NCBI RefSeq assembly: GCF_009834875.1
Contig: NZ_WVHT01000002.1
Coordinates: forward strand, 1-64,000
Origin: Hufsiella arboris
GTDB taxonomy: Bacteria > Bacteroidota > Bacteroidia > Sphingobacteriales > Sphingobacteriaceae
Reading direction: 5' to 3'
DNA length: 64,000 nt
Shown here: positions 1 to 15,969 of the stretch, piece by piece
Layout: every line of letters begins with the position of its first letter
Position numbering within the stretch: position 1 is the first letter of the stretch
Made by a program: the position numbers and the translations under genes
The notes under the pieces: generated by a model
Seen by the model: only the letters and a program-made list of their open reading frames with translations
Databases searched by the model: none
Told to the model about the DNA's origin: nothing

Positions 1-345
1 TTAGATAAAACGTTAAATAGTATTGTGATACATTGCATTATTTTATGTTTCCTTTTGTTCGTTGGGTTGATTATTATTGGAATTAATATCGCATACGGCG
101 GTTCTAACTCAGGAGGCATGTATGGATTATATGTATTACCGCTGATTCCAATTGTTCTCCTCGCTTTAGCGTTCGTAAAGTTGGGCGAAAGAGTTACGAA
201 TAGTAATTGGCAATGGGCGGTGTCATTTATTCCCTCGATCCTTCTAGTAGCTTTAATATGGCTCGACGCGTTCGGCTCTTATGTTTTTGCCGGAACTATA
301 GCTTTGATAATAACTTATACGTTGATACGGCGACTCGTAGACTAA
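1..345 (+). CDS. Small multi-pass membrane protein, probably cut by the window edge
   Basis: I do not recognise the family. The reading frame is open from base 1, so the gene may start outside the window; the first possible start inside it is a GTG at 25. The product has about 106 residues from that GTG and is almost entirely hydrophobic. Three to four membrane segments can be seen, the first in the opening 20 residues, a second around residues 35-50 (rich in Leu, Ile and Val), then two near the C terminus before a short basic tail (RRLVD). It is probably an inner-membrane protein. It is the first gene of a run of same-strand single genes separated by related palindromes, with one such palindrome about 28 bases after its stop. 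Confidence 0.5.
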   Translation, partial: LDKTLNSIVIHCIILCFLLFVGLIIIGINIAYGGSNSGGMYGLYVLPLIPIVLLALAFVKLGERVTNSNWQWAVSFIPSILLVALIWLDAFGSYVFAGTIALIITYTLIRRLVD

Positions 346-372
346 AAGCGGCAGTAAATTTGAGGTCGTACT

Positions 373-500
373 ACACATAGCAGCGCCTTAAAACAATAGC
401 CATTACAGTGCTTTTTGAAAGCTTAATCAAATCAATATCTTTAGTGAAAAATTAAAGTTCCTGCGATTAAGGCTATTGCCTCAAGCTACCAACCGTTATG
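373..500 (+). repeat. Cassette-type imperfect palindrome S1
   Basis: Imperfect inverted repeat filling the gap between two same-strand genes. Around 394-401 the left arm reads CAATAGCC, and around 472-479 the right arm holds its complement GGCTATTG; pairing extends imperfectly outwards. The outer boxes are CATAGC on the left and CCGTTATGCC on the right. The right box contains the ATG at 498, so a start called there may be part of the repeat rather than a true start. Confidence 0.5.
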
Positions 501-995
501 CCTAATTTTAACATGAAACTATTTCCAACAAAAGAACTGGGGTTTAGACTTGTCAATAACCAAGCCGAGACATTAGATAGACTTAATAGAAGAACCGAAA
601 GGTCTGAAAATTTAACTTCCCAAGTTACTGACAAATCATTTCGGGGACTAATAAACGGAAGTGAATTTAGACTGATTTCTTCGACAATTGGGAAAGGTGC
701 ATTTTGTGTTATGACCGGGCATATCAATTCTGTTGATGGAAGTGTAAAAGTTGAGATACACAAAGTATTTCGCATTTTATTGAGTATCATTTTATCGCTT
801 CCTCTTGTCGGAATACTTGCAATGGCAATAAGTCGCAAGGAAGAATTTTCTCCAATCATAATTTTGGTTGCAATCGGGCAGTTTTTAATGATTAGGTTCT
901 TTTTTATTGAACTTGCATTTAGATTTTTATCGCGTGAGAGTCTAAACAGGTTGAGAGAGGTTTTAGACCTAGAATGGCTAAAAAACTATGCATAA
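498..995 (+). CDS. Unknown protein with two C-terminal membrane segments
   Basis: I do not recognise the family. It has 165 residues from the ATG at 498, or 160 from the ATG at 513. The later start is attractive because the first ATG lies inside the right-hand box of the upstream palindrome. The N-terminal 90 residues are soluble and mixed in charge. Two hydrophobic segments follow, at about residues 92-110 (ILLSIILSLPLVGILAMAI) and 118-137, and then a charged C-terminal tail of about 25 residues. This suggests a small inner-membrane protein with a cytosolic head. Its stop codon (TAA, 993-995) falls inside the left box of the next palindrome, as is typical for a gene carried as a compact cassette. 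Confidence 0.6.
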   Translation: MPNFNMKLFPTKELGFRLVNNQAETLDRLNRRTERSENLTSQVTDKSFRGLINGSEFRLISSTIGKGAFCVMTGHINSVDGSVKVEIHKVFRILLSIILSLPLVGILAMAISRKEEFSPIIILVAIGQFLMIRFFFIELAFRFLSRESLNRLREVLDLEWLKNYA

Positions 996-1108
996 CACGG
1001 GTTTTGCATCATGCGGGCTGACGTGCTTCTATTCAAGTCTAGTGCCGGTTAACAGTTTTGTGCTTCGAAACCCACCCGAACGAAAAGCCCGAAACCGTTA
1101 GTGGTAAT
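991..1108 (+). repeat. Cassette-type imperfect palindrome S2
   Basis: Imperfect inverted repeat. The left arm begins CATAACACGGGTTTTGC and continues to GCGGGCTGACGTGC. The right arm holds CCCGAACGAAAAGCCC and then GAAACCGTTAGTGG. The reverse complement of the right arm aligns with the left arm over about 30 bases with small bulges. The same words recur in S7 and S8, so this is a repeat family and not a chance hairpin. The stop codon of the preceding gene lies in the left box. Confidence 0.65.
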
Positions 1109-1136
1109 CATGCCAACAAAACGAATAACAAATTAA

Positions 1137-1532
1137 ATGAAATACTCAATTAAAATAATCTTTCTACTTCTATTAGTAAATTCTACCAAAATTACATTTG
1201 GACAAAACAACATAACTAATGAGACTCTTATTTGCGGAACGTGGAAACTTAAATCCTACGAGGAAGCTGGCGTAAAACATTTAGGCTCAGCAAACCAAAA
1301 TGAAAGCCAAATGATATTTTATGCCGACCATAAATTCAAATCTATTGAGCCTGGCAATATCGAAAATGGAGCTTGGAATTATAACCCAACTACCAAAATT
1401 CTTACTACGACTGATAATATTACAAAGAAAGTGGCTATAATAAAAGTAAGTAAATTGACAAGCGAGGAATGTGTTTTAGAATTTAAAGACCCGGACGGAA
1501 TTCTTTTAAAAGTCCATATGATTCCTAAATAA
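1137..1532 (+). CDS. Secreted lipocalin-like protein
   Basis: It has 131 residues with a clear signal peptide (a Lys-rich start, a run of Leu, Ile and Val, then a cleavage region ending near TFGQ at about residue 23). The mature part starts with ICGTWKLKSYEE, which resembles the Gly-x-Trp opening of lipocalin-like domains of Bacteroidota, and goes on as alternating beta-strand pattern with a second Trp motif (GAWNYNP) in the middle. It is probably a periplasmic or outer-membrane-associated small beta-barrel protein; the ligand is unknown. A lipobox is not present, so a lipoprotein is unlikely. It sits alone between palindromes S2 and S3. The family call rests on the N-terminal motif only and is moderate. 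Confidence 0.6.
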   Translation: MKYSIKIIFLLLLVNSTKITFGQNNITNETLICGTWKLKSYEEAGVKHLGSANQNESQMIFYADHKFKSIEPGNIENGAWNYNPTTKILTTTDNITKKVAIIKVSKLTSEECVLEFKDPDGILLKVHMIPK

Positions 1533-1540
1533 AATGCCAA

Positions 1541-1676
1541 TCGCTAACAACGGGAAAAAAAATGCGGGGCGAAGTGCTCTCACCCACTTCACTTCTTTTT
1601 ATAAAATTTAATGCGGTGCGACAGAGGTTGTGCAAGCAATTCGCAATTTTCTCAAACCCGCAACTCGTCAGCAATT
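1541..1676 (+). repeat. Cassette-type imperfect palindrome S3
   Basis: The left arm starts CGCTAACAACGGG followed by an A-rich stretch and ATGCGGGGCG. The right arm (about 1632-1676) contains GCAATTCGCAATTTTC and ends CCCGCAACTCGTCAGC. The reverse complement of the right arm follows the left arm in order (GCT-AC, CGGG, A-rich run, TGCG). The right end abuts the start codon of the next gene. Confidence 0.5.
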
Positions 1677-2174
1677 ATGAAACGACCCGCAATTATATTA
1701 ATATATCTGACTTTGTTAACAAGCTTATCTTTTGGTCAAAGCCAATCACAGGTTGACAGTTTATTGACGGCATTGTACGACACCAAAAAATCAAAAGACA
1801 TTTCAACGCAAAAAGAAGCTACGCAAATAATTAGCTTTGGTGACAAAGTTTTACCCTTACTGACTAAACTATTTAGTGACAATACACCCACAGAAATAAA
1901 CTCAGAGTGTCAAGGATTAAAATTGACAAAAGGCGAGGTTGCAATTATTTTGGCTGATAGAATTGAGATTATGCCGTATGCGCTGTTGACACATATTCAA
2001 AACTGCTCACTAGAATTCTGTAACGACAACCCAAATCTTATAGAATATTACCTAAATGCTATCAGGCGAGACGGCGTAGAAAAATTTCAAAACAGGTATA
2101 CTGATTGGCTCGATAGCAAAGACAGGAAACAGTGGAATCCATATTTGACAAACAACAAAATAAAACTGAAATAA
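1677..2174 (+). CDS. Secreted protein of unknown function
   Basis: I do not recognise the family. I place the start at ATG 1677 rather than at an earlier in-frame ATG (1611), because 1677 gives a standard signal peptide (KRP, then a run of Ile and Leu, ending LSFGQ near residue 20) and the earlier start lies inside palindrome S3. The mature part of about 145 residues is mostly predicted helix (QVDSLLTALYDTKK, LPLLTKLFSDN) and contains three Cys (ECQG, NCSLEFC) that could form disulfides after export. The helical pairs are reminiscent of HEAT-type repeats but too few to claim the fold. It is a single gene between palindromes S3 and S4. Confidence 0.6.
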   Translation: MKRPAIILIYLTLLTSLSFGQSQSQVDSLLTALYDTKKSKDISTQKEATQIISFGDKVLPLLTKLFSDNTPTEINSECQGLKLTKGEVAIILADRIEIMPYALLTHIQNCSLEFCNDNPNLIEYYLNAIRRDGVEKFQNRYTDWLDSKDRKQWNPYLTNNKIKLK

Positions 2175-2179
2175 CTGCT

Positions 2180-2331
2180 GCCAACGAGGTATTGGCAAAA
2201 GCTGGGCTGAGGAATAAGAACTGAGCTTTGGAATATAAATCAACTGTGGTACATTGGCCATAACAAACGAAAAGTTACGGCCTAGACGTAACGCTAATGC
2301 CCAGCCTTCCAATACCCAAACGTGGTAAACC
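2180..2331 (+). repeat. Cassette-type imperfect palindrome S4
   Basis: Strong inverted repeat. Left arm GGTATTGGCAAAAGCTGGGC (2188-2207). Right arm GCCCAGCCTTCCAATACC (about 2299-2316), whose complement matches the left arm apart from a short bulge. The outer boxes are GCCAACG on the left and ACGTGGTAAACC on the right. The roughly 90-base interior is unpaired or variable. The next start codon is 15 bases beyond the right box. Confidence 0.6.
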
Positions 2332-2345
2332 ATTTAAAAAACTAT

Positions 2346-2938
2346 ATGGAACCTAATCTAGACGAATTACGAAAAAATTATGAAAAATTTGATAACAGCA
2401 AATTAGTCCGTATCGCAACGGAAGAAGCAACGAGACTTCGACCAGAAGCCGTTGAACTTCTTAAACAAATTATTAGCGAACGCGGACTCTCAAAAGACAT
2501 TACAAAAGGAATTGATGCTCAATTTCAAGAAGTTGATAATGAAACACTATTAGAATATACCGAACTTCTAAGAGAACTTCCTTGTCCTATTTGTAAATCG
2601 ACCGAAGAAAAGTTAAATGCAACGATGACTGGATGTGTGGTAAGCTTTATCATTATGACCAGTTATAAAAAAGAATTAAAAATAGCCTGTCCTAATTGCC
2701 TTGACAAAGCGAATAATCAAGCAATGATAAAATCGGCATTGTTCGGTTGGTGGGCTTTCCTTGGGGCATTATAAAAACTCCGCAAGCTCTACTACTGAAT
2801 AATAAAATGAAAAAACAAAACAGACTTTTAAAATCAAACGATCTTTTTAATGCGTTTGTGCTTGGAAGAATCGGACGTTTAGAGGCAAATAGAAATAGTC
2901 CGGCCGAACTTCAAGAGATGATTGAATATATTAGATAA
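2346..2938 (+). pseudogene. Zinc-ribbon protein gene broken by a one-base frameshift
   Basis: From ATG 2346 the frame encodes a soluble N-terminal helical half (LDELRKNYEKFDNSKLVRIA) and a zinc-ribbon pair (CPIC and CPNC, about 40 residues apart), then stops at 2774. Shifting by one base at about 2750-2757 continues the same protein for 60 more residues in a different frame (GFPWGIIKTPQALL to LQEMIEYIR) up to 2938. The junction TGGTGGGCTTTCC would read through as Trp-Trp-Gly-Phe-Pro if the GGG were GGGG. So either one G has been lost in a homopolymer or the assembly has an error there. The whole product would be about 197 residues. I know no function for it; similar zinc-ribbon proteins are common in Bacteroidota accessory regions. 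Confidence 0.7.
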
Positions 2939-2945
2939 TAAAAAA

Positions 2946-3085
2946 CGAGTTATAACAGCAGATTTGCAATGGGCGGGCCTCCTCCTCAGAAAGTTTGTGA
3001 TTGCAGAAAGGTCAGTTCTCCTATTAACATTTGTGCCGAAAAGCATGCCCATCACAAATCTGCCAACCATTATCGGCAATCCTGC
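2946..3085 (+). repeat. Cassette-type imperfect palindrome S5
   Basis: One of the clearest of the set. Left arm AGCAGATTTGCAATGGGCGG (2957-2976). The right arm (about 3044-3064) has the complement of GGCAGATTTGTGATGGGC. The outer boxes are GTTATAAC on the left and CCAACCATTATCGGC on the right. Open frames crossing this stretch follow the palindrome and are not genes. Confidence 0.6.
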
Positions 3086-3343
3086 GGCTGGCAGAAAGCA
3101 CAGCTGGTCAGCAGAACCATCAACGCGGACTCTGCCGATATGTATAGGTTACTAAGATTTACTTCTCTCACATTTATAGCTAATAAGGACAAGTCAATCT
3201 GTATCAAAAGCGTACAATTTTTGTATCGCATTCGAACAATTTTAAAGATACTATTTAGGTGTAAGAAGTTGAATATCAGGATGCAAGCTTGGTGGCATTC
3301 TATTAGTCGCACTTACAGCCGTAAAGCTCTGTTCAATTATTAA
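3086..3343. other. Gene-free stretch before the permease
   Basis: About 260 bases with no convincing gene or promoter. The stretch from S5 to the permease is therefore longer than the leader of the other cassette genes. The open frames here have no start context or protein-like composition. Confidence 0.4.
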
Positions 3344-5752
3344 ATGACTATTATGTTCCAGTCTGTCCTGAGACCAGGTTTTAGAAACATTCGACGCCAA
3401 AAAGGTTTTTCAATCATTAATATTGCAGGTCTCACCCTTGGCTTTACTGCCAGCTTACTCATTGGCTTATTTGTAAGAGATGAGCAGCAGTACGATAAAT
3501 TCAATCCAGGGTCTGAAAACATTTATCGCGTTTATCAAAAAATGAATGGAGATGTAAGCAATATCATTGCTACATCACCTCCGGCATTTGCAGTGGCACT
3601 CAAACAGAACTTTGGCGAGGTGGAGGAGGCCGTTCGTGTGATGGCCTTTAATTCAAAAGAGCTGATTGAAGCAAACGACAAAAAGCTGTATGAAGAGAAT
3701 GGATTCCTTGTCGACAGTAATTTTTTTGAGATGTTTTCGCTCCATTTCCGTTATGGATCGGCGGCAAAAGTGTTCAGCGATCCAAAATCCATTGTGATCT
3801 CTGCTGCTATGGCGGAGAAATATTTCGGCAAAGAGAATCCGGTTGGTAAGGAGCTAACCCTCTCAAAAGATGTAATGCGTGTGCAGGGGGTGCTGGAAAA
3901 CAGCGAGAAGTTTCACTTACCACTCAATTTTCTGATTTCCCTGAACGCCGCAGGCTACCCGGCCGACATAATGCAAAGCTGGCAATGGTATCCCTTCAAC
4001 ACGTATGTGAGGCTAAGGAATGGCAGCAACGCAGATCAGCTCCAGGCAAAATTCCAAAGTTTTTCAAAGCCTTTTCTGAAAGGTGAAGGGGGTACCAATG
4101 TGCCGTACTTCCAGCCGCTCGGTCAGGTGCATCTCTATTCATCAGACTTTAGCTACGATATGTCCATCAGGGGTAACATCACATATGTGAAAGCCCTTAC
4201 GATCATCGCTATTTTTATCCTGCTCATCGCCTGCTTTAACTTTGTAAACCTTGCCACGTCAAGTGCACTAAAAAGAGCCAGGGAAGTAGGCGTGAGAAAG
4301 ACAATTGGCGCAGGCAGAAAAGCGCTGGTGATACAGTTTATCGGTGAGACAATATTGCTCGCCGCTATTAGTATGGTTATTGCCGTCGCGGCCACAAGGC
4401 TCCTGTTGCCCTCACTTAATGGCTTTACGGAGAAGAGCATCGAATTCGATCTGATTAGCAATCCATTGGTTGGGCTCACATTAACGGCGCTTACATTGGT
4501 TGTAGGGATACTTGCAGGCTTCTATCCTGCGCTGGTATTGTCTTCTTTTCAGCCGGTGAAAGTTTTAAAAGGGAGCATTGTACCAGATGCCGCGCAGGGA
4601 GGTAGGCCATGGCTGAGACATGGCCTCGTGATAATACAGTTTTCATTATCGGTGCTGCTTATCATTAGCGCCATTGTGGTAATTAACCAGGTGCGTTATA
4701 TGCACAATAAGGATTTGGGCTTCCGGAAAAAGCAGGTCATGTTCTTTCCTATGAGAGGTGAGAACCTGCAAAAGAGTTATGCAAGCTTTAAGAATGAGTT
4801 GATGGGCTACCCGGGAATAGCATCGGTATCGATTGGCTATGGTTTCCCCGGTGATGCCTTTGGCGATGGCTTAATGACCGTAAAGGAAAAGCCTGAAGTG
4901 AAGCCAACAAGAGCCACCCAGTTAATGGTCGACGAAGATTATATAAAAACTCTCGGGCTAAAGCTGCTTGCAGGCAGGAACTTTTCGAAACATATCAGTA
5001 GCGACGTAAGCGCCTATATCATCAATGAAACAGCCGTTCGTGAGCTTGGATTGGGCAGTGCCGAGCAGGCTATCGGTAAAACGCTGTCATGGCCTACATG
5101 GAGAAAGCCTGATTCATTAAAGACAGGGCCGGTAATTGGCGTGGTGAAAGACTTCCATTACAAAAGCCTGCACGAAAAAATAGAGCCTTCGGTGCTGCAG
5201 ATTTATCCGCAGGCCTATTCTAAAGTAGCGGTTAAAATAAGTGGCTCAAACATCGAACCTATTATTGGCAAGATCAAAAACGTATGGAACCGTTACAGCC
5301 CCGACTATCCTATTGAGTACAATTTCCTTGACGAAAGCTTTGGTAAGATGTATAAAGGAGAAGATAAGCTTAAAACCTTGCTTTCGCTATTTACAGCAAT
5401 AACCATTTTTGTCTCTTGTCTCGGTTTGCTGGGCTTAGCAGCTTATGCGGCGGAGCGTAGAAAGAAGGAGCTTGGTGTGAGAAAAGTGTTGGGCGCCACG
5501 GTGGAGGGACTTGTGGTGCTGCTCTCAAAAGATTTTCTGAAGCTCGTGCTGATCTCCCTTTTGCTGGCTTCTCCGATTGCGTGGTACTTCATGAATCAGT
5601 GGCTGGATAATTTTCCTTACCGCATTACCATTAGCTGGTGGATGTTCGCAGTTGCAGGAGGGCTTGCAGTGTTGCTGGCATTATTAACAGTGAGTTTCCA
5701 GACAGTAAAGGCCGCCCTTTCTAACCCTGTACAAAATTTGAGGTCTGAGTGA
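3344..5752 (+). CDS. MacB/FtsX-type ABC transporter permease
   Basis: The product has 802 residues and is an inner-membrane permease of the type VII (MacB-like) ABC family, in the double-length form common in Bacteroidota. An alternative start is the Met at codon 5. Segment order: cytoplasmic FRNIRRQKG and a first membrane helix at residues 20-42; a large periplasmic MacB-type domain to about 280; an FtsX block with membrane helices near 282-305, 335-355 and 380-405 and the coupling-type motif REVGVRKTIGA; a second helix near 428-450 (VIIQFSLSVLLIISA) with a second periplasmic domain; and a final FtsX block (about 680-795) with KELGVRKVLGA. No ATPase partner is adjacent. Such permeases act in efflux or in moving lipoproteins and stress signals; the substrate cannot be told. 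It is the only long gene in the cassette-like run, lying between S5 and S6. Confidence 0.85.
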   Translation: MTIMFQSVLRPGFRNIRRQKGFSIINIAGLTLGFTASLLIGLFVRDEQQYDKFNPGSENIYRVYQKMNGDVSNIIATSPPAFAVALKQNFGEVEEAVRVMAFNSKELIEANDKKLYEENGFLVDSNFFEMFSLHFRYGSAAKVFSDPKSIVISAAMAEKYFGKENPVGKELTLSKDVMRVQGVLENSEKFHLPLNFLISLNAAGYPADIMQSWQWYPFNTYVRLRNGSNADQLQAKFQSFSKPFLKGEGGTNVPYFQPLGQVHLYSSDFSYDMSIRGNITYVKALTIIAIFILLIACFNFVNLATSSALKRAREVGVRKTIGAGRKALVIQFIGETILLAAISMVIAVAATRLLLPSLNGFTEKSIEFDLISNPLVGLTLTALTLVVGILAGFYPALVLSSFQPVKVLKGSIVPDAAQGGRPWLRHGLVIIQFSLSVLLIISAIVVINQVRYMHNKDLGFRKKQVMFFPMRGENLQKSYASFKNELMGYPGIASVSIGYGFPGDAFGDGLMTVKEKPEVKPTRATQLMVDEDYIKTLGLKLLAGRNFSKHISSDVSAYIINETAVRELGLGSAEQAIGKTLSWPTWRKPDSLKTGPVIGVVKDFHYKSLHEKIEPSVLQIYPQAYSKVAVKISGSNIEPIIGKIKNVWNRYSPDYPIEYNFLDESFGKMYKGEDKLKTLLSLFTAITIFVSCLGLLGLAAYAAERRKKELGVRKVLGATVEGLVVLLSKDFLKLVLISLLLASPIAWYFMNQWLDNFPYRITISWWMFAVAGGLAVLLALLTVSFQTVKAALSNPVQNLRSE

Positions 5753-5970
5753 TTATTGATGCAGTAGTTTGGTGCCATGTGTAGTTATATCTGTTTAGAT
5801 CATAGATGCTGCCACAGATAAGGCTTGCCATACCCATAACAATTGGAGGCGAAGATGAATTCAATGGAATTATGTTTGAAAAAGAATAAAAAGCACATGC
5901 AACTACCTTGTTGAAATTGAAGGATTATTCGGAAAGTGGCTTGAGTAAAATTAAAAGCGTTTGTTTAAGT
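5753..5970. other. Stretch with a possible gene remnant
   Basis: No complete gene. A short frame starting at ATG 5806 reads 27 residues (including RLAIPITIGGEDEFNG) to a stop at 5887-5889. The same frame then continues protein-like beyond the stop (KAHATTLLKLKDYSESGLSK) to about 5970. This looks like the tail of a decayed gene with a nonsense codon, but it is too short to assign. Confidence 0.25.
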
Positions 5971-6112
5971 AGTTAGGACGTACATCGGGTTCAAGTTATG
6001 GCCGGGTGACGTGGTTCTTGCTCCCTACTTCTTTTTAACTACTTTAGCGCCGGCTACAGGAAGCACTTTTATTGAGGGCACAACTAAAGCCCACAAACCG
6101 TTGGTGTCATTT
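5971..6112 (+). repeat. Cassette-type imperfect palindrome S6
   Basis: Left arm CATCGGGTTCAAGTTATGGC followed by CGGGTGACGTGG. The right arm has GGCACAACTAAAGCCCAC and ends AAACCGTTGGTGTC. The right-end box AAACCGTTGG is a close variant of AAACCGTTAG in S2, and GGGTGACGTG parallels GGCTGACGTG there. Confidence 0.5.
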
Positions 6113-6149
6113 TTTGAAGACACCGCTATAACAATATCAAAATAACTTA

Positions 6150-6956
6150 ATGAAACAACTTGCATTTTCCCTGGCGCTTATTTTATTTGCTAACTTTTTA
6201 TTCGGACAAAATTTATCTACTAAAACTAAAATTTTGTTGATTGGTACCGTCCATTTTGAAACGCCACATACAGATAAATTTGAATTAGAAACCGATAACT
6301 TCCTTGAACCTAAGAGACAGAAAGAATTAGAAGAACTCACGAAAAATTTGCTTGAAACTAAGGCAGACAAAGTAATGATAGAGCGACAATCAAAAGACCA
6401 GGATAAAATTGACAGTCTTTATAATGCTTACCTCACTAATAAATATAACCTTACAGTTTCTGAAAGAGAACAAATTGGATTTCGACTGGCGAAAAAATTA
6501 AAACTGAAAGCAATTAACTGTATTGATGCTGATTATAGTCTTCACGACAGTTTAATGTCAGTGACTGCGAAAAATAACAACCAGCTCTATCTGCTTGAAA
6601 AACTTGGTGAAGATGCTAAAACTTTGTTAGGTGAGGTCGATAATAAAGTAAAAAGCAGTTCAATAACTGAAACTTTAAAATTCATTAACCGGCCTGATTT
6701 ATTACAGAGAAATCTTTCGCTATATCTTAAATATTTTGCGAAAATTGGTGCAGGAAATAATTTTGCAGGTGCGGAATTTGTTTCAGAATGGTATTTACGA
6801 AACTTAGGAATTTATGCTAATATTTTGAATCAGGTTAAACCGACCGATAAATTTATTATTGTAATATTTGGTCAAGGACATATTCCAATTTTGCAACATT
6901 TTTTTCAGAACAATGACGATTATGAATTAATAGAAGTTAACAGCGTATTGAAATAA
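6150..6956 (+). CDS. Secreted DUF5694 family protein
   Basis: It has 268 residues. A signal peptide covers residues 1-20 (KQLAFSLALILFANFLFGQ). The mature protein opens with KTKILLIGTVHFETPHTDK, the Gly-Thr-x-His-Phe motif typical of DUF5694 proteins, and later has VMIERQSKDQDK with the conserved Glu-Arg and, near the C terminus, IIVIFGQGHIPILQHFF with the Gly-x-Gly-His-x-Pro motif. These paired motifs resemble those of the TraB/PrgY/GumN superfamily, whose enzymatic role is unsettled. It is probably periplasmic. It is a single gene between S6 and S7, with no operon partner. The family call is good; a biochemical function cannot be given. Confidence 0.75.
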   Translation: MKQLAFSLALILFANFLFGQNLSTKTKILLIGTVHFETPHTDKFELETDNFLEPKRQKELEELTKNLLETKADKVMIERQSKDQDKIDSLYNAYLTNKYNLTVSEREQIGFRLAKKLKLKAINCIDADYSLHDSLMSVTAKNNNQLYLLEKLGEDAKTLLGEVDNKVKSSSITETLKFINRPDLLQRNLSLYLKYFAKIGAGNNFAGAEFVSEWYLRNLGIYANILNQVKPTDKFIIVIFGQGHIPILQHFFQNNDDYELIEVNSVLK

Positions 6957-6960
6957 AACT

Positions 6961-7095
6961 GCACCAGCAAGGGTTTTGCGCCAGGCGGGCTGAAGTGCAT
7001 AATCTCAGCAGTGGTAATGCTATCGGCAATATAACAAAACCAGATTTCTGCTTTGATTTTCCGCCCGAACGCAAGACCTAAACATTACCTGCCAT
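6961..7095 (+). repeat. Cassette-type imperfect palindrome S7
   Basis: Left arm AGGGTTTTGCGCCAGGCGGG then CTGAAGTGC; right arm CCGCCCGAACGCAAGACCT then AAACATTACC. The complement of the right arm pairs with the left over about 20 bases. The words GGGTTTTGC, GCGGGCTGA and CCCGAACGCAA are shared with S2 and S8. Confidence 0.65.
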
Positions 7096-7126
7096 TCTTA
7101 GACCGGCACTCGGCAAATCAGAAAAT

Positions 7127-8251
7127 ATGAATAACGATAAAATGAAAGATTGGACAAGGCGGAAATTTATTACAACTGTAACCAGTGCTGGTACAATGTT
7201 CCTGTTTAGTCCATTTGTTTCTTTAGCCGCTGCTGGACAAGACGACAAAGTGAAAAAAATAGCAGCCAAAGCAATAGGCATTGACACTCATAATCACATG
7301 GACGTTCCATTTAGTTTAGAACAGTTCAAAGGACAGCAATATGACTTAGCAGGTGAAATGAAAGCGTCGGGTTTAACGGCTATTTGTATGACTTTTTGCG
7401 TTGACCGTCCTAAATTGGAAAAAGAAGGTGACGCATACGAAAGATTTATAACGAGCCTCGACGAAATGGATGAAATGCTTAAAGCCAACCACCTGACTCG
7501 GGCATTAAACTACTCAGATTTAAAAAAGGTAAAAAAAGAGAATAAGCGAATCGTTATTCAATCAATAGAAGGCGGACATTTCATTGAAGGCAAAATAGAA
7601 CGTATTAAAATTGCTTACGACAGAGGGTTACGTCATTTAGGTTTAATGCACGATGGACAGACTTCTCCACCAATGGGAGATATCTACACTGACACACCAC
7701 AATTTGGCGGGCTGACGCAGTTAGGTATTGACACGATTAAAGAATGTAACAGGCTTGGCATCCTCGTTGACCTTGCGCATTGTAGTAACGAAGCCATTAA
7801 TAAAGCCCTGGAAGTATCAACTAAACCAATGCTCATTTCACACACAGGGCTAAATACACAGTTGGGAACAAATGAAAGAATGGTAAAAATGATGATGCCA
7901 CGGCTTATCAGCAAAGAACAAGCGAAGAAATTTGCTCATGCCGGCGGCGTTATCGGCGTGTGGACACATCTTGCAGATACGCCCCTGGATTATGCAAAAA
8001 ATATAAGAGCATTGGTCGACGTTATCGGAGCAGAGCATGTTTGTATCGGCACGGATACTAAAATGGCTTTGCCAGGCGGAAGCAACGACAGGTTCGGAAG
8101 CAAGACCAATCAAAGTTGGAATACCACTACTAACGGATTTTTCTATACTGTGGTTGACGCATTATTAAAAACAGGATTTACCGAAAAAGAAATTACGCAA
8201 ATTGGCGGCGAAAATTATTGCCGCATTTTTGACAAGGCAACAGATATTTGA
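7127..8251 (+). CDS. Tat-exported membrane dipeptidase-like peptidase, family M19
   Basis: It has 374 residues and is a zinc-dependent dipeptidase of the renal dipeptidase (M19) family, which cleaves dipeptides, often with D-residues. A twin-arginine signal (WTRRKFITTVTSAG, residues 9-22) precedes a hydrophobic stretch and an Ala-rich cleavage site near residue 36, so it is exported folded, with metal loaded in the cytosol. Metal-site motifs in order: DTHNHMD (residues 53-59), the Glu in SIEGGHF, the His in VDLAHCSNEA and the His in ISHTGLN, then IGTDTK with a conserved Asp near the C terminus. The start could instead be the second Met (residue 6). It is a single gene between S7 and S8; the natural substrate is unknown. 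Confidence 0.85.
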   Translation: MNNDKMKDWTRRKFITTVTSAGTMFLFSPFVSLAAAGQDDKVKKIAAKAIGIDTHNHMDVPFSLEQFKGQQYDLAGEMKASGLTAICMTFCVDRPKLEKEGDAYERFITSLDEMDEMLKANHLTRALNYSDLKKVKKENKRIVIQSIEGGHFIEGKIERIKIAYDRGLRHLGLMHDGQTSPPMGDIYTDTPQFGGLTQLGIDTIKECNRLGILVDLAHCSNEAINKALEVSTKPMLISHTGLNTQLGTNERMVKMMMPRLISKEQAKKFAHAGGVIGVWTHLADTPLDYAKNIRALVDVIGAEHVCIGTDTKMALPGGSNDRFGSKTNQSWNTTTNGFFYTVVDALLKTGFTEKEITQIGGENYCRIFDKATDI

Positions 8252-8288
8252 AAAACGGTATGCTGACAAAAAATGGCAGGTAACATGA

Positions 8289-8450
8289 TATTGCCAAAGC
8301 AGGGCTTGACAAGCCGGATGCGTTAAGCTCAAGTGTTCCAGTGGATAGGACATGTCACAACAGGCGGCCTGGCAAATTCGCCATACATATTGGAAGTTTT
8401 GTACTCCGAAACACGCCCGAACGCAAAGCCCGAAACCATTATGCATCGTT
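8289..8450 (+). repeat. Cassette-type imperfect palindrome S8
   Basis: Left arm GCAGGGCTTGACAAGCCGGATGCG (given here as its parts GCAGGGCTTG and CCGGATGCG); right arm CGCCCGAACGCAAAGCCCG followed by AAACCATTATGC. The right arm is nearly identical to that of S2 and close to S7. This copy is longer than the others, with an interior of about 80 bases. The gap to the next gene is about 100 bases without other features. Confidence 0.55.
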
Positions 8451-8553
8451 ATAAAAACCTCTTGACGCAGAAGACCACTTTTTTGACGCATTATGCCCTA
8501 TCTGTTTTGCGGTTAAGCAGTACATTTGAATTGCAACAAAAAAAAATAAAATT

Positions 8554-8985
8554 ATGGCAAATATCAATCCACACATTAATTTCAACGGCAATGCAGAAGA
8601 AGCGTTCAACTTTTACAAATCAGTATTTGGCGGAGAGTTCGCAAAAATAATGCGTTTCAAAGATCTGGTAAATGCTGGATTTCCAGTAGCAGAAAATGAA
8701 GCAAATAAAATAATGCACATTGCTTTACCAATCGGTAAAACTTTTTTAATGGCTAATGATGTACCTGAAATATTGGGGCGAACAAATGAAAATGAGAACA
8801 GAAGTAAAATTGTAATTAGCGCGGAAAGCAAAGAAGAAGCTGACAAATTATTCAATGGACTTTCTGCAGGCGGACAAATTGAAATGCCTATTTCTGACAG
8901 CCCCTGGGGTACATATTTTGGTATGTTTAGAGATAAGTATGGAATTGAATGGATGATAGATTTTGATTCGAATTTTAAGGGCTAA
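8554..8985 (+). CDS. VOC family protein (PhnB-like)
   Basis: It has 143 residues and is a cytosolic vicinal-oxygen-chelate fold protein of the PhnB / 3-demethylubiquinone-methyltransferase-like branch. It shows the paired beta-alpha-beta-beta-beta modules: NPHINFNGNAEEAFNFYKSV at the start with the typical AEEAFNFYKSVFGGE motif, then IMHIALPIGKTFLMANDVP, and in the second half the repeat SAESKEEADKLFNGLSAGG and the closing FGMFRDKYGIEWMIDFD. Members bind a metal and small molecules; many give resistance to antibiotics or aldehydes, but the substrate here is unknown. It is the last recognisable gene of the cassette-like run. Confidence 0.85.
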   Translation: MANINPHINFNGNAEEAFNFYKSVFGGEFAKIMRFKDLVNAGFPVAENEANKIMHIALPIGKTFLMANDVPEILGRTNENENRSKIVISAESKEEADKLFNGLSAGGQIEMPISDSPWGTYFGMFRDKYGIEWMIDFDSNFKG

Positions 8986-9494
8986 ATATAGCCGAAGAAA
9001 ATAACGAATACATCACGGTATTCCCAAATGCAAGCTAACAGCTTCGATTGGACATTTGTGCAAGGTTACAGAATGGAGTAATCATTCACATTGGCGATCC
9101 TGATTGTTATACCACAGCATGAAGAAAACGACCCAAGATATAACGTAAAATAAACCAACAATTAAAGTTTAGTTTTTAGAACTGTAGCCTTTCCCTTTAT
9201 GCCAAACGGTCTAAAAACCTCTCCTCTTTTTTCTCATTTAGTTTTATAAGTTCCGGCCTCAGCCGCAGATAGTTTTCGATATTCCAAGGTATAGAATTCG
9301 TTGTTGGAAAAGACCGCGACCTGGCAGAATTATCTATTTAGAGCAGGCTGTGGCGTAGAGCTTGATTTTGACTTTTAACTACTCGCCCTTTATCGTTATT
9401 GCTTAAGGTTTTTGAGGCGTTGCTGGCGATGGCAATGGGTTATATCTCAGTCGCCTAACCGCTATGGTTACTTCAATATTTCCTTTAATACACT
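8986..9494. other. Gene-free stretch of about 500 bases
   Basis: No gene on either strand. Just after the VOC gene there is a weakly palindromic section (9010-9060, including AAGCTAACAGCTT), which may be a decayed cassette-type repeat. The rest shows no coding pattern or recognisable RNA. Confidence 0.4.
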
Positions 9495-9523
9495 AAATTA
9501 TTATTGTTTATCAATAATAATTT
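9495..9523 (+). promoter_or_regulatory. Perfect 12-bp inverted repeat upstream of the DUF2975/HTH pair
   Basis: The arms AAATTATTATTG (9495-9506) and CAATAATAATTT (9512-9523) are exact complements around the 5-base spacer TTTAT. The site lies 38 bases before the start codon of the DUF2975 gene. It is a likely operator, and the HTH protein two genes on is the obvious candidate binder (autoregulation). The base composition makes a transcription terminator unlikely. Confidence 0.7.
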
Positions 9524-9560
9524 ATTATTTTAGCGTAATGAATCAAATGGTTAAAACATT

Positions 9561-10040
9561 ATGAAAAGAATTCCAATAGTATTTCTTCAGGCAGTCATCG
9601 TGCTTATCGGCACTATTGCACTTGTCATTTTGCTTTGGCTTCCCTTAACTGAGGGAAGGGCCGCAAACTTAGACTTGTTCAGCATTTATTTTGACCCGCT
9701 CATTTTGTATGCATACGCGGCATCAGTCGCTTTTTTTGTCGCGCTGTACAAGGCGTTCAAATTACTTGGATACATCGGACATAATAAAGTTTTCTCTCCA
9801 AGCTCTGTTAAGACTTTAAAGGGTATAAAATATTGTGCAATCGTGCTGGGTGCTTTAATTGTGTTAGCGGGATTATACATAAGACTATTTCACAATAAAG
9901 ATGACGACCCTGCGGGCTTTCTTGCCATTTGTATCGTAACTACTTTTGTTTCTATCGTAGTTGCAACTGCTGCGGCAATATTTGAAAAACTCTTGCAAAA
10001 TGCCATCGATATGAAATCTGAAAATGACTTAACAATTTAA
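9561..10040 (+). CDS. DUF2975 membrane protein
   Basis: It has 159 residues and is an inner-membrane protein with four predicted helices, at about residues 8-28, 44-66, 92-112 and 121-142, with the short loop motif GHNKVFSPSSVKTLK between the second and third. This arrangement and the motif F-S-x-x-x-V-K-x-L-K are typical of DUF2975. Members occur next to a small Cro/C1-type regulator, as here; the pair behaves as a sensor/regulator unit in Firmicutes and Bacteroidota by genome context, but the signal is unknown. Only 3 bases separate its stop from the regulator's start. The start follows a 12-bp inverted repeat operator. Confidence 0.85.
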   Translation: MKRIPIVFLQAVIVLIGTIALVILLWLPLTEGRAANLDLFSIYFDPLILYAYAASVAFFVALYKAFKLLGYIGHNKVFSPSSVKTLKGIKYCAIVLGALIVLAGLYIRLFHNKDDDPAGFLAICIVTTFVSIVVATAAAIFEKLLQNAIDMKSENDLTI

Positions 10041-10043
10041 GCT

Positions 10044-10271
10044 ATGCCAATTATTGTAAATTTAGATGTGATGATGGCAAAGCGAAAAATTTCATTAAAC
10101 GAACTTTCTGAAAGAGTTGACTTGACGCTGTCTAACCTATCGATCTTAAAGACAGGGAAGGCGAAGGCAATACGATTTAGCACCTTGGATGCAATTTGTA
10201 AAGCATTAGAATGCCAACCCGGTGACATTTTAGAATATGTTAATGATGAACAAAAAACAACAGACCGTTAG
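10044..10271 (+). CDS. Cro/C1-type HTH regulator, YozG-like
   Basis: It has 75 residues, a single helix-turn-helix domain of the small YozG-like group. The recognisable pattern is MPIIVNLDVMMAKRKISLNEL, then SERVDLTLSNLSILKTGKAKA (turn and recognition helix), then STLDAICKALECQPGDILEYV, the standard closing motif of this group. It acts in the cytosol as a DNA-binding dimer, probably repressing or activating its own operon through the inverted repeat at 9495-9523. It is co-transcribed with the DUF2975 membrane protein just upstream. Confidence 0.9.
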   Translation: MPIIVNLDVMMAKRKISLNELSERVDLTLSNLSILKTGKAKAIRFSTLDAICKALECQPGDILEYVNDEQKTTDR

Positions 10272-10312
10272 CATCAGTTAGCAATTCGCCGGCAGTCACA
10301 GGGCATATTTGG

Positions 10313-11683
10313 TTAAAACTTAAAAGTGATGGTACTGCCGAACATCAAAATATCTTTCCCCGGACCGGCTTCTTTTAAATAATCTCCGGTATTAAACCAG
10401 GTAAATTCCTGCCTGAAATACAAATATTTGTTAGGAAAATATTCCAGTGCGCCGCCTAGCTGACGGCCAATTTGCTTTGATGTCCCGACCTTGCCGGAAT
10501 AAATGAGTTTGCTGTTAACCGCGTAAATTCCGTCATTACGGCTCATACGCCAGAAAAGGTCGTAATCGCTGGAGAATATTAAGTTTTTAGTGAGATTGAA
10601 CTGGATATACGGATGAGCATCTACTAAGTTAGACGGGCCGATCAGCGCAGCCAGGCCAAAATAAGCACCTTTAGGAAATAAGGGGTTGAAGGTGTTAAGC
10701 CTGCTGTCGTTATAGGTTTTGTCGCCGCTTATAGCTTCAGTTTTTAAACCAATCTGCGGCTTGAATTTGTTGTGAAAAAAAGTGTAGGCAACGTTAACAG
10801 ACATCGTCCACGCCGAAATGGCACTGGCTGCAAAATCACCAAACTGATATAAGCCCTCGATGTCGTATTGCCAGGCTGGCGTGGTTTCCCACAATCGTGC
10901 ACCAACAGAATGGCGCGTTTCAGTCCCGCTGCCATCATCAAATGAGACCGCTTTTTTACGAATGCCGAGATAATAGATATCAAAATTTGACACGACCTTT
11001 ATTTTGTTAAAAACAGCGTAAGCGCCCCAAAAATGCGTGGCATCGCTGAAGCCGTCATCAAAAATATTTGGCTTAGCGAATACGTAATGAGAATAAAAAA
11101 GATCAAGTTTTACATTTTGACTGCCGTACATAATCTTGGCAGCGTCAAAGGACTGGCGATTATTTGGCGCCTCGCGCACAGCCACTAATCTTTGTGATCC
11201 GTATGAAAGTTCCTGCCGGCCTACCCGTAAAGTCAATTTTCTTGTGTTGCTTAAGGTTGTTGAAACGTCAAAAAAAGCCTGGTGCAGATCAAGGGGGTTT
11301 TGATCAACCGGTGATGGAGTGTCTGCCTCGCCGCCGGCCAAACTGCTTTGCAGCTGTACAAATGTGCGAAAGTGTTTGCCGGCATGAAAATCGACATGAC
11401 CCAAATACCTGGCCAGTATAAAACCGTCTTTGTCTTCGGGCGCCTCACCCCAGTCCTGATTCTTGTAATAGAAGTATTGGAAGCGTGCTTCGCCACCGAA
11501 ACTAAAATAGGCGGCGTTGTCTTTAGAAACGGAATTGAACTTCAAATTGCGATACCAATCACTTGTGGTATCTTTAGCCAGGTAGCTGTAATTTTCGTCG
11601 TATCGCAGCTGCTTAAAGGATTTTTCTTGCGCCAAACAGCTTAATGATGTAAGTAAAAAAAACAGGGCAATTAAGGTCTTCAT
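10313..11683 (-). CDS. Outer-membrane porin with alginate-export-type barrel
   Basis: It has 456 residues from ATG 11683, with a signal peptide (KTLIALFFLLTSLSCLAQEK). The mature part has the alternating-residue pattern of a beta-barrel and many aromatic girdle residues. Motifs such as RLTLRVGRQELSYGSQRLVA (here starting KLTLRVGRQELSYG) followed by REAPNNRQSFDAAK are characteristic of alginate export (AlgE-like) porins of Bacteroidota, and the C-terminal Phe (MFGSTITFKF) is the outer-membrane insertion signal. It likely passes small anionic or sugar-like compounds; the substrate is not known. The frame stays open upstream to 11791, but those 36 codons resemble another family (see the next entry), so I start at 11683. 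Confidence 0.8.
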   Translation of the reverse strand: MKTLIALFFLLTSLSCLAQEKSFKQLRYDENYSYLAKDTTSDWYRNLKFNSVSKDNAAYFSFGGEARFQYFYYKNQDWGEAPEDKDGFILARYLGHVDFHAGKHFRTFVQLQSSLAGGEADTPSPVDQNPLDLHQAFFDVSTTLSNTRKLTLRVGRQELSYGSQRLVAVREAPNNRQSFDAAKIMYGSQNVKLDLFYSHYVFAKPNIFDDGFSDATHFWGAYAVFNKIKVVSNFDIYYLGIRKKAVSFDDGSGTETRHSVGARLWETTPAWQYDIEGLYQFGDFAASAISAWTMSVNVAYTFFHNKFKPQIGLKTEAISGDKTYNDSRLNTFNPLFPKGAYFGLAALIGPSNLVDAHPYIQFNLTKNLIFSSDYDLFWRMSRNDGIYAVNSKLIYSGKVGTSKQIGRQLGGALEYFPNKYLYFRQEFTWFNTGDYLKEAGPGKDILMFGSTITFKF

Positions 11684-11791
11684 GAGGAAACGGGATTTCA
11701 GATCAACCTGATTGCTGGCCACTTGATCTTTAAAGTCGATGAGCACTAATGCATGACTGCCGGATGGAAGTAAATCGGGTGGAAGTTCCAT
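11684..11791 (-). pseudogene. In-frame remnant of an isochorismatase-family gene
   Basis: The 36 codons upstream of and in frame with the porin include LLPSGSHALVLIDFKDQVAS. This resembles the start of isochorismatase-family hydrolases (ALxLIDFQxQ, where the Asp is catalytic). There is no rest of the enzyme nearby. The simplest reading is that a deletion joined the first 30 or so codons of such a gene to the region before the porin. Whether it is translated, giving a fused porin without an N-terminal signal, is unknown. Confidence 0.4.
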
Positions 11792-12319
11792 GATAGTAAT
11801 TCGTTTAGTTAATCACTGCCACAAAACTTAGCTAAGAATAGGCCGGTAATGTAATTTATTGATTGATAAATAGTTGTGTTTCGTTTATCCAAATCCGGTA
11901 GCTGTATTTCGGAGTTTAACTGGTTTTTTACGATATAACGTTGTCCTGTTATTGGCTAGCTTTTGCCGCGATCGATTGGAATAACGTCAGGTATGAACCG
12001 TATCAAAAGGAACGATAGATAAGTTCAATCAGGCTTTTCGCAACAATACAGTATTTCAACTTTTCAGCCATTACATCTCTTGTCAGAGAATTGCTGCCAG
12101 CATTACCTTATTTCGTTGCTGACAATACCAGATAACGATATAAAGCAAATATGAATTGCTGAAAAAAGCATAAGTGACTGTTTGTTAATGATTTGCATTG
12201 GTGGCTCGCTGCTTGCCATTTGAATTTCATATCAAATAAAACGGATATGAACGCAAAACCTCAGCCAGTACCATCGATTGCCTGGAAGACAGCAGATAAA
12301 TCATTAACACCTTCACATT
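11792..12319. other. Gene-free divergent intergenic region
   Basis: About 530 bases between the porin (leftwards) and the hydrolase operon (rightwards). I see no gene, RNA or strong repeat. It presumably holds promoters for both sides, but I could not fix one with a good TTG-N19-TAnnTTTG match. Confidence 0.4.
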
Positions 12320-13102
12320 ATGAAAGCTTTGACATCTAAGACCATTGTTTTTATTACCGGTGCGTTTGTAAGCAGCGACTGCTGGAACGATTGGAAAACC
12401 TATTTCGAGGAACGGGGCTATACTACATTGGCGCCAGCCTGGCCTCATAAGGATGCACCGGCCTGCACATTGCGGGAAAGACATCCCGATGCCGAAGTCG
12501 CCAGTTTGCGCCTGGCTTCATTAACCGATTATTTTGCAACCATCGTAAAGCAGCTGTCTGAGAAGCCGATCCTTATTGGCCATTCGATGGGCGGGTTGAT
12601 AACGCAGTTGTTGCTTCAAAAAGATCTGGCGACTGCAGGTATCGCCATTCATTCACTCCAGCCCAAGGGTATTTTTACTTTTAAGTTTTCTTTTTATAAA
12701 GCGGGCTGGGGGGCATTGGGTTTTTTCACAGATACGAAAAAAACCTACCTCATGTCATTTCGCGAATGGCAATATGCGTTTACAAATGGCATGTCTTTCG
12801 AGCAGCAAAAGGAGGCATACTATAACCTGCTGGTGCCTGAATCAAAACTGCTGGTCAGGGATGCCACAACCGACGCAGCAAAAATCAACTTTTCTTCTGC
12901 GCACGCTCCACTGCTATTCCTTGCAGGCAGTACCGATCACTTCATACCGGCTTCGCTTAACTATAGTAATTACAAAAAATACAGCCATCACCAATCGGTA
13001 ACCGATTATAAAGAATTTGCAGGCCGTAATCATTTCGTACTTGGCCAGCCAAACTGGTCGGAGATCGCCGATTTTGTGTTAAGCTGGATTAAAAAAAATT
13101 AA
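12320..13102 (+). CDS. Alpha/beta hydrolase
   Basis: It has 260 residues and a canonical alpha/beta hydrolase layout without a signal peptide, so it is cytosolic. The opening strand is TIVFITGAFVSSDCWNDW; the nucleophile elbow GHSMGG lies at about residues 87-92 (Ser nucleophile); the acid is probably the Asp in AGSTDHFIP, and the His in AGRNHFVLGQ near the C terminus completes the triad. The lid region (residues 115-165) is long and aromatic (FYKAGWGALGFF). It heads a four-gene rightward operon, 20 bases before the amidohydrolase. The substrate is unknown; an esterase or C-C hydrolase acting with the downstream hydrolases is plausible. Confidence 0.85.
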   Translation: MKALTSKTIVFITGAFVSSDCWNDWKTYFEERGYTTLAPAWPHKDAPACTLRERHPDAEVASLRLASLTDYFATIVKQLSEKPILIGHSMGGLITQLLLQKDLATAGIAIHSLQPKGIFTFKFSFYKAGWGALGFFTDTKKTYLMSFREWQYAFTNGMSFEQQKEAYYNLLVPESKLLVRDATTDAAKINFSSAHAPLLFLAGSTDHFIPASLNYSNYKKYSHHQSVTDYKEFAGRNHFVLGQPNWSEIADFVLSWIKKN

Positions 13103-13122
13103 AACCATCAAAGTAAATACAA

Positions 13123-14943: not shown

Positions 14944-15951
14944 ATGAAAATACAATTCTTAAAATTAGCCAAGCTTAGCCTGTTGCTGATGTGCTTTGGC
15001 CATCAGGCTTATTCTCAAATGCCAATGCCGCCGACTGTTCCCATCTGGGACGCCAATAAAGTAAGCCTGGGGCTGCAAAAAATAAGTAATGACGTTTATG
15101 CCATAATACCTACAACTGCCGCAAAAGAGACAGCTAAAGGTATCCCACAAGCTACGACAGGAGGGTTCATTGTAGGCGAAAAAGGTGTGTTGCTGATAGA
15201 AGTAATGCTAACAAAGCGACTGTACGATCAGCAGATTAAACTGGTTCGTTCAATCACCGATAAACCTATCATTTTCGCCGTCAACACCAGCGATCACGGC
15301 GACCATTGCTTCAGCAATTATTTATTGCCCGCAAAAACGGTGATCATTCAGAACGAATTCGCAAAAGAAAACCTCGCGAAAAACTATGACGGTATCAAGC
15401 AATTTATGGTCACCTTGTTTGGCTCGGGCAGGGGGATTGAAAATACCATTTTCCGCCCGGCTGATATTGTGATACCTAAAAACAGTAACCTGAAATTAGA
15501 CCTTGGTGGCGGTAAAATTGTGGAGTTGCTAAATGTAGGTACCGCGCAGTCGCCGGCTGATCTGTTCGTATGGATGCCTGATCAGAAAATATTTTGGGCC
15601 GGTAATCCGTTCATCGCAGAAAGTCCGGCTATACCATGGCTTTTTGACGGCTTCTTTTTAGAACCGGCAAGTAATCTGAAAAAGATATACGATTTTTTAC
15701 CCGAAGATGCAGTTGTCATTCCCGGCCATGGACGTATCACCAATAAAGCCGGCATTAAATACACGATAGATTATGTGCAGGAACTAAAAAAAGAAGTAGA
15801 AGCAGCGGTTGACAAAGGCCTTACACTTGAGCAAACCCGGGAGTATGTTAAAATGAAAGAATACGATAAAGGGTATGTGTTGTTCAACTGGCTGCATTAC
15901 AACTTTAACCTGCCTAATGCTTATAAAGACATCAGCAATAACAAGAAATAA
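14944..15951 (+). CDS. Secreted metallo-beta-lactamase-fold protein with altered metal ligands
   Basis: It has 335 residues with a signal peptide ending near AYSQMP. The fold is shown by GGFIVGEKGVLLIEVML, the motif region NTSDHGDHCF, AGNPF and VVIPGHGRIT. In standard members the first motif is HxHxDH; here it is SDHGDH, so the first His is Ser. The third-ligand His region reads GTAQSPADL (His to Gln), and the bridging Asp region reads WAGNP (Asp to Asn). Asp, the two other His of the first motif and the His of PGHG remain. This leaves one complete-looking metal site of the Asp-His-His type and an incomplete second one. It may be a mono-metal hydrolase or a pseudoenzyme. It lies third in the hydrolase operon. 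Confidence 0.75.
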   Translation: MKIQFLKLAKLSLLLMCFGHQAYSQMPMPPTVPIWDANKVSLGLQKISNDVYAIIPTTAAKETAKGIPQATTGGFIVGEKGVLLIEVMLTKRLYDQQIKLVRSITDKPIIFAVNTSDHGDHCFSNYLLPAKTVIIQNEFAKENLAKNYDGIKQFMVTLFGSGRGIENTIFRPADIVIPKNSNLKLDLGGGKIVELLNVGTAQSPADLFVWMPDQKIFWAGNPFIAESPAIPWLFDGFFLEPASNLKKIYDFLPEDAVVIPGHGRITNKAGIKYTIDYVQELKKEVEAAVDKGLTLEQTREYVKMKEYDKGYVLFNWLHYNFNLPNAYKDISNNKK

Positions 15952-15969
15952 TAATAAACAGCAAAAATC

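Follow-up and report, generated by a model that had tools for sequence, protein, structure and literature searches.

Which system has lined up the genes at the left end of contig C12 of Hufsiella arboris on a single strand, with a palindrome in the gaps between them, and is it an integron? The window analysed here, 64,000 nucleotides in length, is C12:1-64000; its base 1 is the end of the contig, in a genome of 4.80 Mb assembled into 56 contigs. Within positions 1-8985 all gene-like open reading frames (ORFs) are found on the + strand and the gaps are filled by imperfect palindromes, eight related copies of which split the stretch into units of mostly one gene (Table 1). We estimate with a probability of roughly 0.88 that 1-8985 is part of a cassette array, belonging to an integron-like system that is widespread in Bacteroidota and employs an IntI-like recombinase without the additional domain. 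In its working this system is integron-like; by the accepted definition, which is based on the integrase, it is no integron.

The palindromes as attC-like sites

The sites share one layout. Their outer left half runs from YAAC through 1-2 nt, a 9-bp stem and 4-5 nt to a GCGGG-like stem that precedes a variable centre, and their right half continues with a CCCGC-like stem, 4-5 nt, a stem, 5-6 nt and GTTR; the spacer is lopsided (2/6 nt). The attC-type core YAAC...GTTR is present in the window, for example as GCATAAC...GTTAGTG and TTATAAC...ATTATCG. The right cores read GTTATGC, GTTAGTG, GTCAGCA, GTGGTAA, ATTATCG, GTTGGTG, ATTACCT and ATTATGC, and to judge by its letters the window carries an integron core, with decay.

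Two attC models were used for detection. Model R1 has 17 seeds, five of them from the window (S1, S6, S8 and C1d were not seeds); these came from stem scans, which initially gave many chance matches on both strands, also outside arrays, and were kept only if they lay in register and in array context. Model R2 was built from 44 sites of other genomes, whose members had been found via R1, and it is thus not wholly independent. R2 recovers six of the eight window palindromes, all on the + strand (E values computed for 100,576 bases). Up to E 10 it gives nothing else on this strand of the 64 kb; the sole further match, on the - strand with E 1.3, is S5 read backwards. When R2 is scored genome-wide, only S2, S5 and S3 fall below 0.01 and S7 stands at 0.54; S1 and S4 are unlisted at E <= 1, a level at which 13 places are found, four of them inside the window array. 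Isolated attC-like sites of the same genome lie at C12:288882-289008, C1:140769-140897, C54:214761-214846 and C34:191413-191539. Two other searches were discarded: R1 with its filters off over 1-10500 performed worse than the filtered search (best E 0.019, mostly non-site matches), and a two-mismatch word search of the own genome gave 26 hits, hardly above the 15 of a reversed control.

The structure of the sites is kept more than their sequence. In the R1 seed alignment 80% of cells are paired, with a covariation of 0.356 versus 0.155 after shuffling. For the 44 R2 sites, in an alignment that was fitted to the R2 model and leans toward it, 88% of cells are paired and covariation reaches 0.483 versus 0.138 in shuffled and 0.04-0.06 in slid versions, with 184 versus 68 double changes. 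These foldable sites have the outer core AAC...GTT, the core AC/GT pair occurring in 44 of 44 and the next A/T pair in 43 of 44. Covariation spans 22 pairs around the variable centre. Canonical attC sites carry extrahelical bases on one side of the stem (T-N6-G type). In the structure that we propose here, the L stem is formed by 9 consecutive pairs (93% of cells paired), with no fixed bulge, and is followed by a 5-column loop on each side. The outermost three pairs of integrated sites are only about half paired, as hybrids of two cassettes would be.

These results bear on the original prediction, made from the letters of the window, which had described same-strand single-gene units separated by eight related palindromes. 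The ORF list, the gap palindromes and the six R2 matches bear this out, except that at 2346-2938 two ORFs share one unit. The words it had seen shared among palindromes are real, with 87% identity over 47 nt (1054-1100 and 8395-8441) and 84% over 31 nt (996-1026 and 6968-6998), whereas it was wrong on the attC core, of which it had seen no exact copy (GTTRRRY): YAAC...GTTR is recognisable and strongly covarying. It had also proposed a covariance alignment of the palindromes and a search of Bacteroidota genomes for the same hairpin family; in such a search R1 has a match at E <= 0.1 in 12 of 60 genomes, in a scan that misses sites, for example every site of G016.

The integrase on contig C18 and its putative attI site

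The window holds no integrase, as the original prediction had noted; the genome does, on a separate contig, which that prediction missed. It had wished to look for a tyrosine recombinase to the left of the window, but the window is the start of its contig and the neighbouring DNA belongs to another one. Five proteins of the genome match PF00589, and one of them, C18:2985-4031 (348 aa), is IntI-like in two pieces, matching TIGR02249 at 2-176 and 238-315, below the cut-off. The region of the IntI additional domain (columns about 319-365 of alignment A2) is a gap in 13 of 13 aligned family members and present in both canonical IntI of genome G028 in the same alignment, in which the LHH stretch is likewise missing from 13 of 13 members. 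The R, K, HxxR, H and Y columns, taken as catalytic, are kept, and the C-terminal end is IYTH...SPLD-like. The top NCBIfam model for the C18 protein is NF040815 recomb_XerA_Arch (207 bits versus a cut-off of 220), entitled 'site-specific tyrosine recombinase/integron integrase', and its solved relatives are 4a8e and 5hxy. In an AlphaFold model of the Flavobacterium member A5 (mean pLDDT 85.5, pTM 0.60) the N-terminal module is arranged strand-strand-helix-strand-strand. Among PDB structures, the recombinase body of this model is best matched by the integron integrase 2a3v (E 8.6e-18, TM 0.55) and then by XerA 5hxy. The C18 group has its own N-terminal module of ~75 residues, to which Pfam assigns no named family. 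In a tree, canonical IntI and the own XerC/XerD fall outside the 44-row family; the canonical-IntI fork does not reach the star threshold, and long branches come together, making the order unsure.

Proteins similar to that of C18 at E <= 1e-80 occur in 40 of 395 genomes of the phylum, the own genome included, arrays having been checked in only some of them; relatives of the G001 enzyme at E <= 1e-40 occur in 149 of 295 genomes of the class, with arrays shown in only some. A search of viral contigs gave 60 distant loci.

An ordinary integron remnant, that is, a cluster of attC sites lacking integron-integrases (CALIN) left by a canonical IntI with the additional domain and merely divergent in sequence, appears improbable to us. 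Such a remnant would account for the YAAC...GTTR core, for one gene per unit and for self-complementary cassette ends, which are integron features; two canonical IntI genes do occur in G028, a genome of the same family, and canonical integrons are reported from Bacteroidota, the available text of the IntegronFinder 2.0 paper counting one Bacteroidetes genome, that of Salinibacter ruber M1, among those with a complete integron. However, TIGR02249 exceeds its cut-off in no protein of the own genome and in one of 60 relatives (G028), no R1 match up to E 10 lies within the 20 kb searched around each canonical IntI of G028 (L027 and L028), and attachment sites and arrays adjoin the integrase that has no insert. 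The two canonical genes of G028 lie at L027 5259-6212 and L028 ~15497-16500.

The putative attI site lies beside the integrase gene. On the 3' side of the integrase stop there is a hairpin-rich stretch that ends with TATAANNNAGTT^A, beyond which the sequences differ between loci. A strict, post hoc attI motif is found at 30 of 40 C18-like loci, C18 itself being entered as a miss (0.56 on average and at most 3 after shuffling), and starts 75-97 bp past the stop in 27 of these 30 (at 62, 68 and 163 bp in the other three). It had replaced a looser pattern, present at 53 of 90 loci versus a shuffled mean of 23. A nearly identical pattern, with [AG]GTT instead of AGTT, is present in 48 loci (shuffled mean 1.8, maximum 6) of a second set, the best 80 of a longer list, which overlaps the first by at least six contigs that, to judge by their length, seem to be shared (L181/L060, L150/L106, L154/L115, L138/L047, L155/L062, L166/L110). 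Its hosts include Flavobacterium, Kaistella, Pedobacter, Algoriphagus, Cyclobacterium, Galbibacter and Marinilabilia, together with many metagenome-assembled genomes, one of them labelled Ignavibacteria.

In relatives the integrase adjoins an array; in the own genome contig ends hide any such link. In the 80-locus set all 44 attC matches (E <= 0.05, in 26 loci) are downstream of the integrase stop and on the integrase strand, even though about 672 kb were searched upstream versus 308 kb downstream, and the first match lies 0.2-6.8 kb behind the integrase. In G225, a genome of one contig, attC sites come after the integrase and share its strand. The earlier suggestion of an integron-like but different system typical of Bacteroidota is supported, and more strongly than the letters alone could show.

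The ends of the contigs are suggestive in this regard. C18 terminates inside attI, at ...TATAAACAA (an end also read as ...CATCCTTATAAACAA), just short of the expected GTTA. Among the 30 contigs with the strict attI, four end 0-2 nt past GTT and two more within 21 nt, and among the 48 of the second set six end within 28 nt (raw counts in both cases); assembly breaks exactly at attI would be caused by a population with different first cassettes. C1, a further contig, begins with GCACC, and its first left core GGTGCTAAC predicts the cassette start GTTAGCACC, so that C1 seems to begin four bases after a junction. The start of C12, TTAGAT, could be a junction too; its own cassette end does not confirm this. 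The C1 and C12 arrays both read + from the contig start, as would be expected if C18 preceded one of them. We infer that C12 or C1 once continued from C18 and that C18 encodes the enzyme serving the window array.

Cassette boundaries and the proposed mechanism

In an integron each cassette is closed by its own left core, whereas the right core of that site is already part of the following cassette; consequently the first bases of a cassette should pair with its own last bases and integrated sites should be hybrids. At 35 of 60 sites the exact reverse complement of the first 9 bases of the cassette is found <= 6 kb downstream (permuted mean 1.7, maximum 5; one site cut by a contig edge is scored as a miss, about ten come from scans instead of the model, and matches weaker than about E 0.01 as well as the strong L082 and L111 matches were left out). 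Of these, 17 coincide with sites listed before, and in most of the other printed contexts an attC left arm follows. The 35 all belong to the 49 sites of relatives; the 11 sites of the own genome contribute none. At L031, for instance, one cassette starts and ends with GTTAGCAACC...GGTTGCTAAC, and the first cassette counted from attI with GTTGTACGAC...GTCGTACAAC. Thus G^TT edges with a start complementary to the end are found in relatives, and for the window there is a weaker test: with sites chosen by the analyst, the own start-end match is 43 versus a mean of 28 for other pairings (P 0.0024, 5040 permutations). Matches there are seven bases long at 495/996 and twelve at 7085/8283, the ends of cassette 7084-8437 pairing over 12 consecutive bases (TTACCTGCCATT/AATGGCAGGTAA).

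One gene, of unknown function, is present twice in the own genome, once in the array with which C1 begins and once by itself in C10. The copies are identical at 559 of 588 positions (95%), and the shared stretch begins exactly at GTTATGTG and extends into the site. To the left of the C10 cassette there is a relic attachment site that aligns with the attI of C18 at a score of 57 (on average 25 and at most 40 after shuffling); a tblastn search of this place gave no integrase. Locus L025 (8551-9361, in G000:C10, G000 being the own genome) accordingly reads as a relic attI, no integrase, then a single cassette. In a cross-species search the duplicated gene was found in the own genome and in one other of 385.

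The boundary rule also largely refutes a further explanation, to which we give hardly any credence: that the palindromes are repeats akin to repetitive extragenic palindromes or miniature inverted-repeat transposable elements, or terminator hairpins between genes, and no recombination sites. Isolated single matches elsewhere in the genome would suit it. Yet genes lie within the repeated units, the two edges of a cassette are complementary to each other, one complete gene unit has a second copy that starts at precisely the same left edge, the sites stand downstream of an integrase on one strand, and at the gathering threshold Rfam gives one tRNA in the window and no other family.

In the mechanism that we propose, a tyrosine recombinase dedicated to the system, with IntI and archaeal XerA among its relatives, would insert circular one-gene cassettes at attI. 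Recombination of attI with attC would lead to insertion and that of attC with attC to excision, with strand exchange at G^TTR; the left core YAAC of attC would stay behind the gene and the right core would become the first bases of the cassette. Cassettes would travel as circles, and the integrase-proximal end of the array would be its variable end. The palindrome probably works in single-stranded, folded form, since a covarying stem surrounds a variable centre. The part by which folded sites are known to be read is missing from this enzyme; its N-terminal module or some other surface might take over that role, or the stem might mimic double-stranded DNA, as in CTX phage.

The same cassette system could instead use ordinary double-stranded sites of Xer/Cre type, the palindrome serving replication, transcription stop or protection, a variant that we regard as unlikely yet worth weighing. 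The recombinase has neither the helix segment by which VchIntIA contacts extrahelical bases nor LHH (the segment as described in the available part of PMC3053210), and XerCD, which have no such domains, recombine a CTX phage stem that mimics double-stranded DNA (PMC4792948, as far as its available text goes). However, the covariation over 22 pairs around a variable centre, the uniform orientation (44 of 44 in the 80-locus set) and the outer pairs, kept between the own start and the own end of a cassette and only about half paired in the hybrid integrated site, argue against this variant.

Several observations weigh against the cassette array favoured here. The window sites are degenerate, S6 and S8 are missed by the models, the left cores were picked after looking, there are no exact 9-mer pairs, and units 2322-3068 and 3069-6099 are irregular. 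The assembly does not link the integrase to the window, whose contig begins inside the array. The strict attI pattern was chosen after the flanks had been seen, and among 49 loci with more distant integrases just 8 carry it; an attC match was obtained in only 26 of the 80 loci, many contigs ending near attI. Outside that set, the attC match of L082 (E 1.2e-5), a locus of the 5'-attI type, is opposite to the integrase strand, and so is that of L111 (2571-2701, E 1.5e-5) relative to the nearby integrase, which is unexplained. In the subgroup of G001 (same genus as the source), G016 and G003, an attI-like site ending with ATGTT is on the 5' side. Some genes of the G225 array, e.g., a methyltransferase, read against the array, and in G292 a distant homologue (35%) of the duplicated gene apparently lies outside any cassette.

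In the subgroup just named the array is reversed in direction where sites were found. By eye, a 5'-attI integrase adjoins a tRNA-like sequence at L031 ~7178-7250 and L032 ~7738-7810. This sequence does not differ between the two genomes, a hint that the integron may be mobile as a complete island.

Relation to known systems and contents of the array

Like integrons, including chromosomal arrays and CALINs, the system has mostly one-gene cassettes in one direction, attC palindromes with an AAC...GTT core, a probable exchange point at G^TT, hybrid integrated sites, attI beside the integrase and an IYTH...SPLD-like C-terminal end. It differs in the integrase, which has no additional domain and in the C18 group carries an extra N-terminal module, in the position of attI, which in this group follows the 3' end of the gene, and in attC sites with a 2 versus 6 nt spacer and a continuous 9-bp L stem. 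XerA and XerCD resolve chromosome dimers at dif. The best NCBIfam model of the C18 protein is of the XerA type, with 4a8e and 5hxy as relatives, but XerA and XerCD have no cassettes. Messier and Roy are said to have stated in the title of a 2001 paper that the additional domain is necessary for activity. The archaeal integrons have different hosts, and the available text of PMC9668308 ascribes to their IntIs a domain around patch III needed for recombination. CTX phage integration by XerCD also involves a folded stem and enzymes without the additional domain (PMC4792948, same extent), but neither an array nor a dedicated enzyme, and that text makes no mention of attI. In VchIntIA an alpha-I2 helix and two histidines recognise extrahelical bases, according to the accessible portion of PMC3053210.

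Surveys pick integron integrases by the additional domain (PMC2426708, PMC8352920, in the portions available), and those that demand it would miss this system, whose integrase does not have it. No description of such an integron class was found in the open-access literature searched, bioRxiv and most subscription papers being outside the search. We lean, with some reserve, toward the view that Bacteroidota have a large integron class of their own, whose recombinase never had or has lost the additional domain and whose attC sites are co-adapted, either as a second solution to cassette capture or as an intermediate that survives between enzymes of Xer type and IntI; this class would be a main route for shuffling small and anti-phage genes. 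If this is true, the known range of integrons changes, and their origin becomes testable: is cassette capture possible without the additional domain?

Table 1. Units and palindromes at positions 1-8985 of the window.
Feature	Position	Strand	Details
First cassette, incomplete (cut by contig start)	1..494	+	5'-open ORF 1-345
S1, attC-like, degenerate left core	375..501	+	R2 E 2.7e-5
Cassette	495..1096	+	gene 498-995, 165 aa, Pfam: none; ends pair GTTATGC/GCATAAC
S2, attC-like	990..1103	+	R2 E 3.7e-10
Cassette	1097..1666	+	gene 1137-1532, 131 aa, Pfam: none
S3, attC-like	1542..1673	+	R2 E 6.2e-5
Cassette	1667..2321	+	gene 1677-2174, 165 aa, Pfam: none
S4, attC-like	2179..2328	+	R2 E 0.0045
Cassette with two ORFs	2322..3068	+	2346-2774 and 2807-2938
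S5, attC-like	2950..3075	+	R2 E 2.8e-9
Long unit	3069..6099	+	802-aa MacB_PCD/FtsX permease gene 3344-5752; two ends pair poorly
S6, palindrome	5972..6106	+	attC-like by eye/register only; missed by R1 and R2
Cassette	6100..7083	+	gene 6150-6956 (DUF5694); ends GTTGGTG/CACCAGC
S7, attC-like	6962..7090	+	R1 35.5 bits (S7 is an R1 seed); R2 6965-7090, E 0.011
Cassette	7084..8437	+	gene 7127-8251 (membrane dipeptidase M19)
S8, palindrome	8278..8444	+	right arm 87% identical to that of S2; missed by R1/R2 with default filters
Last unit	8438..8985	+	glyoxalase/PhnB-like gene 8554-8985

By eye, the product of ORF 1-345 is a small membrane protein. Four of eight window genes have no Pfam match and the other four are MacB/FtsX, DUF5694, peptidase M19 and glyoxalase; seven cassette genes of the window gave no match in PADLOC. 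The unit 3069-6099 is atypical and long for a cassette, and may be a fused or inserted segment. No closing attC of the last unit was found by R2 in the whole 64-kb window.

The L075 array of G225 (G225:C1:132000-151000, positions 36-13884) encodes a retron type VI-like reverse transcriptase and a GajB/RTasHel-like helicase, as well as a type II restriction enzyme and methyltransferase (on the other strand) and a Shedu-like SduA. From its predicted gene content it is a defence island made of cassettes, and the system may therefore move defence genes.

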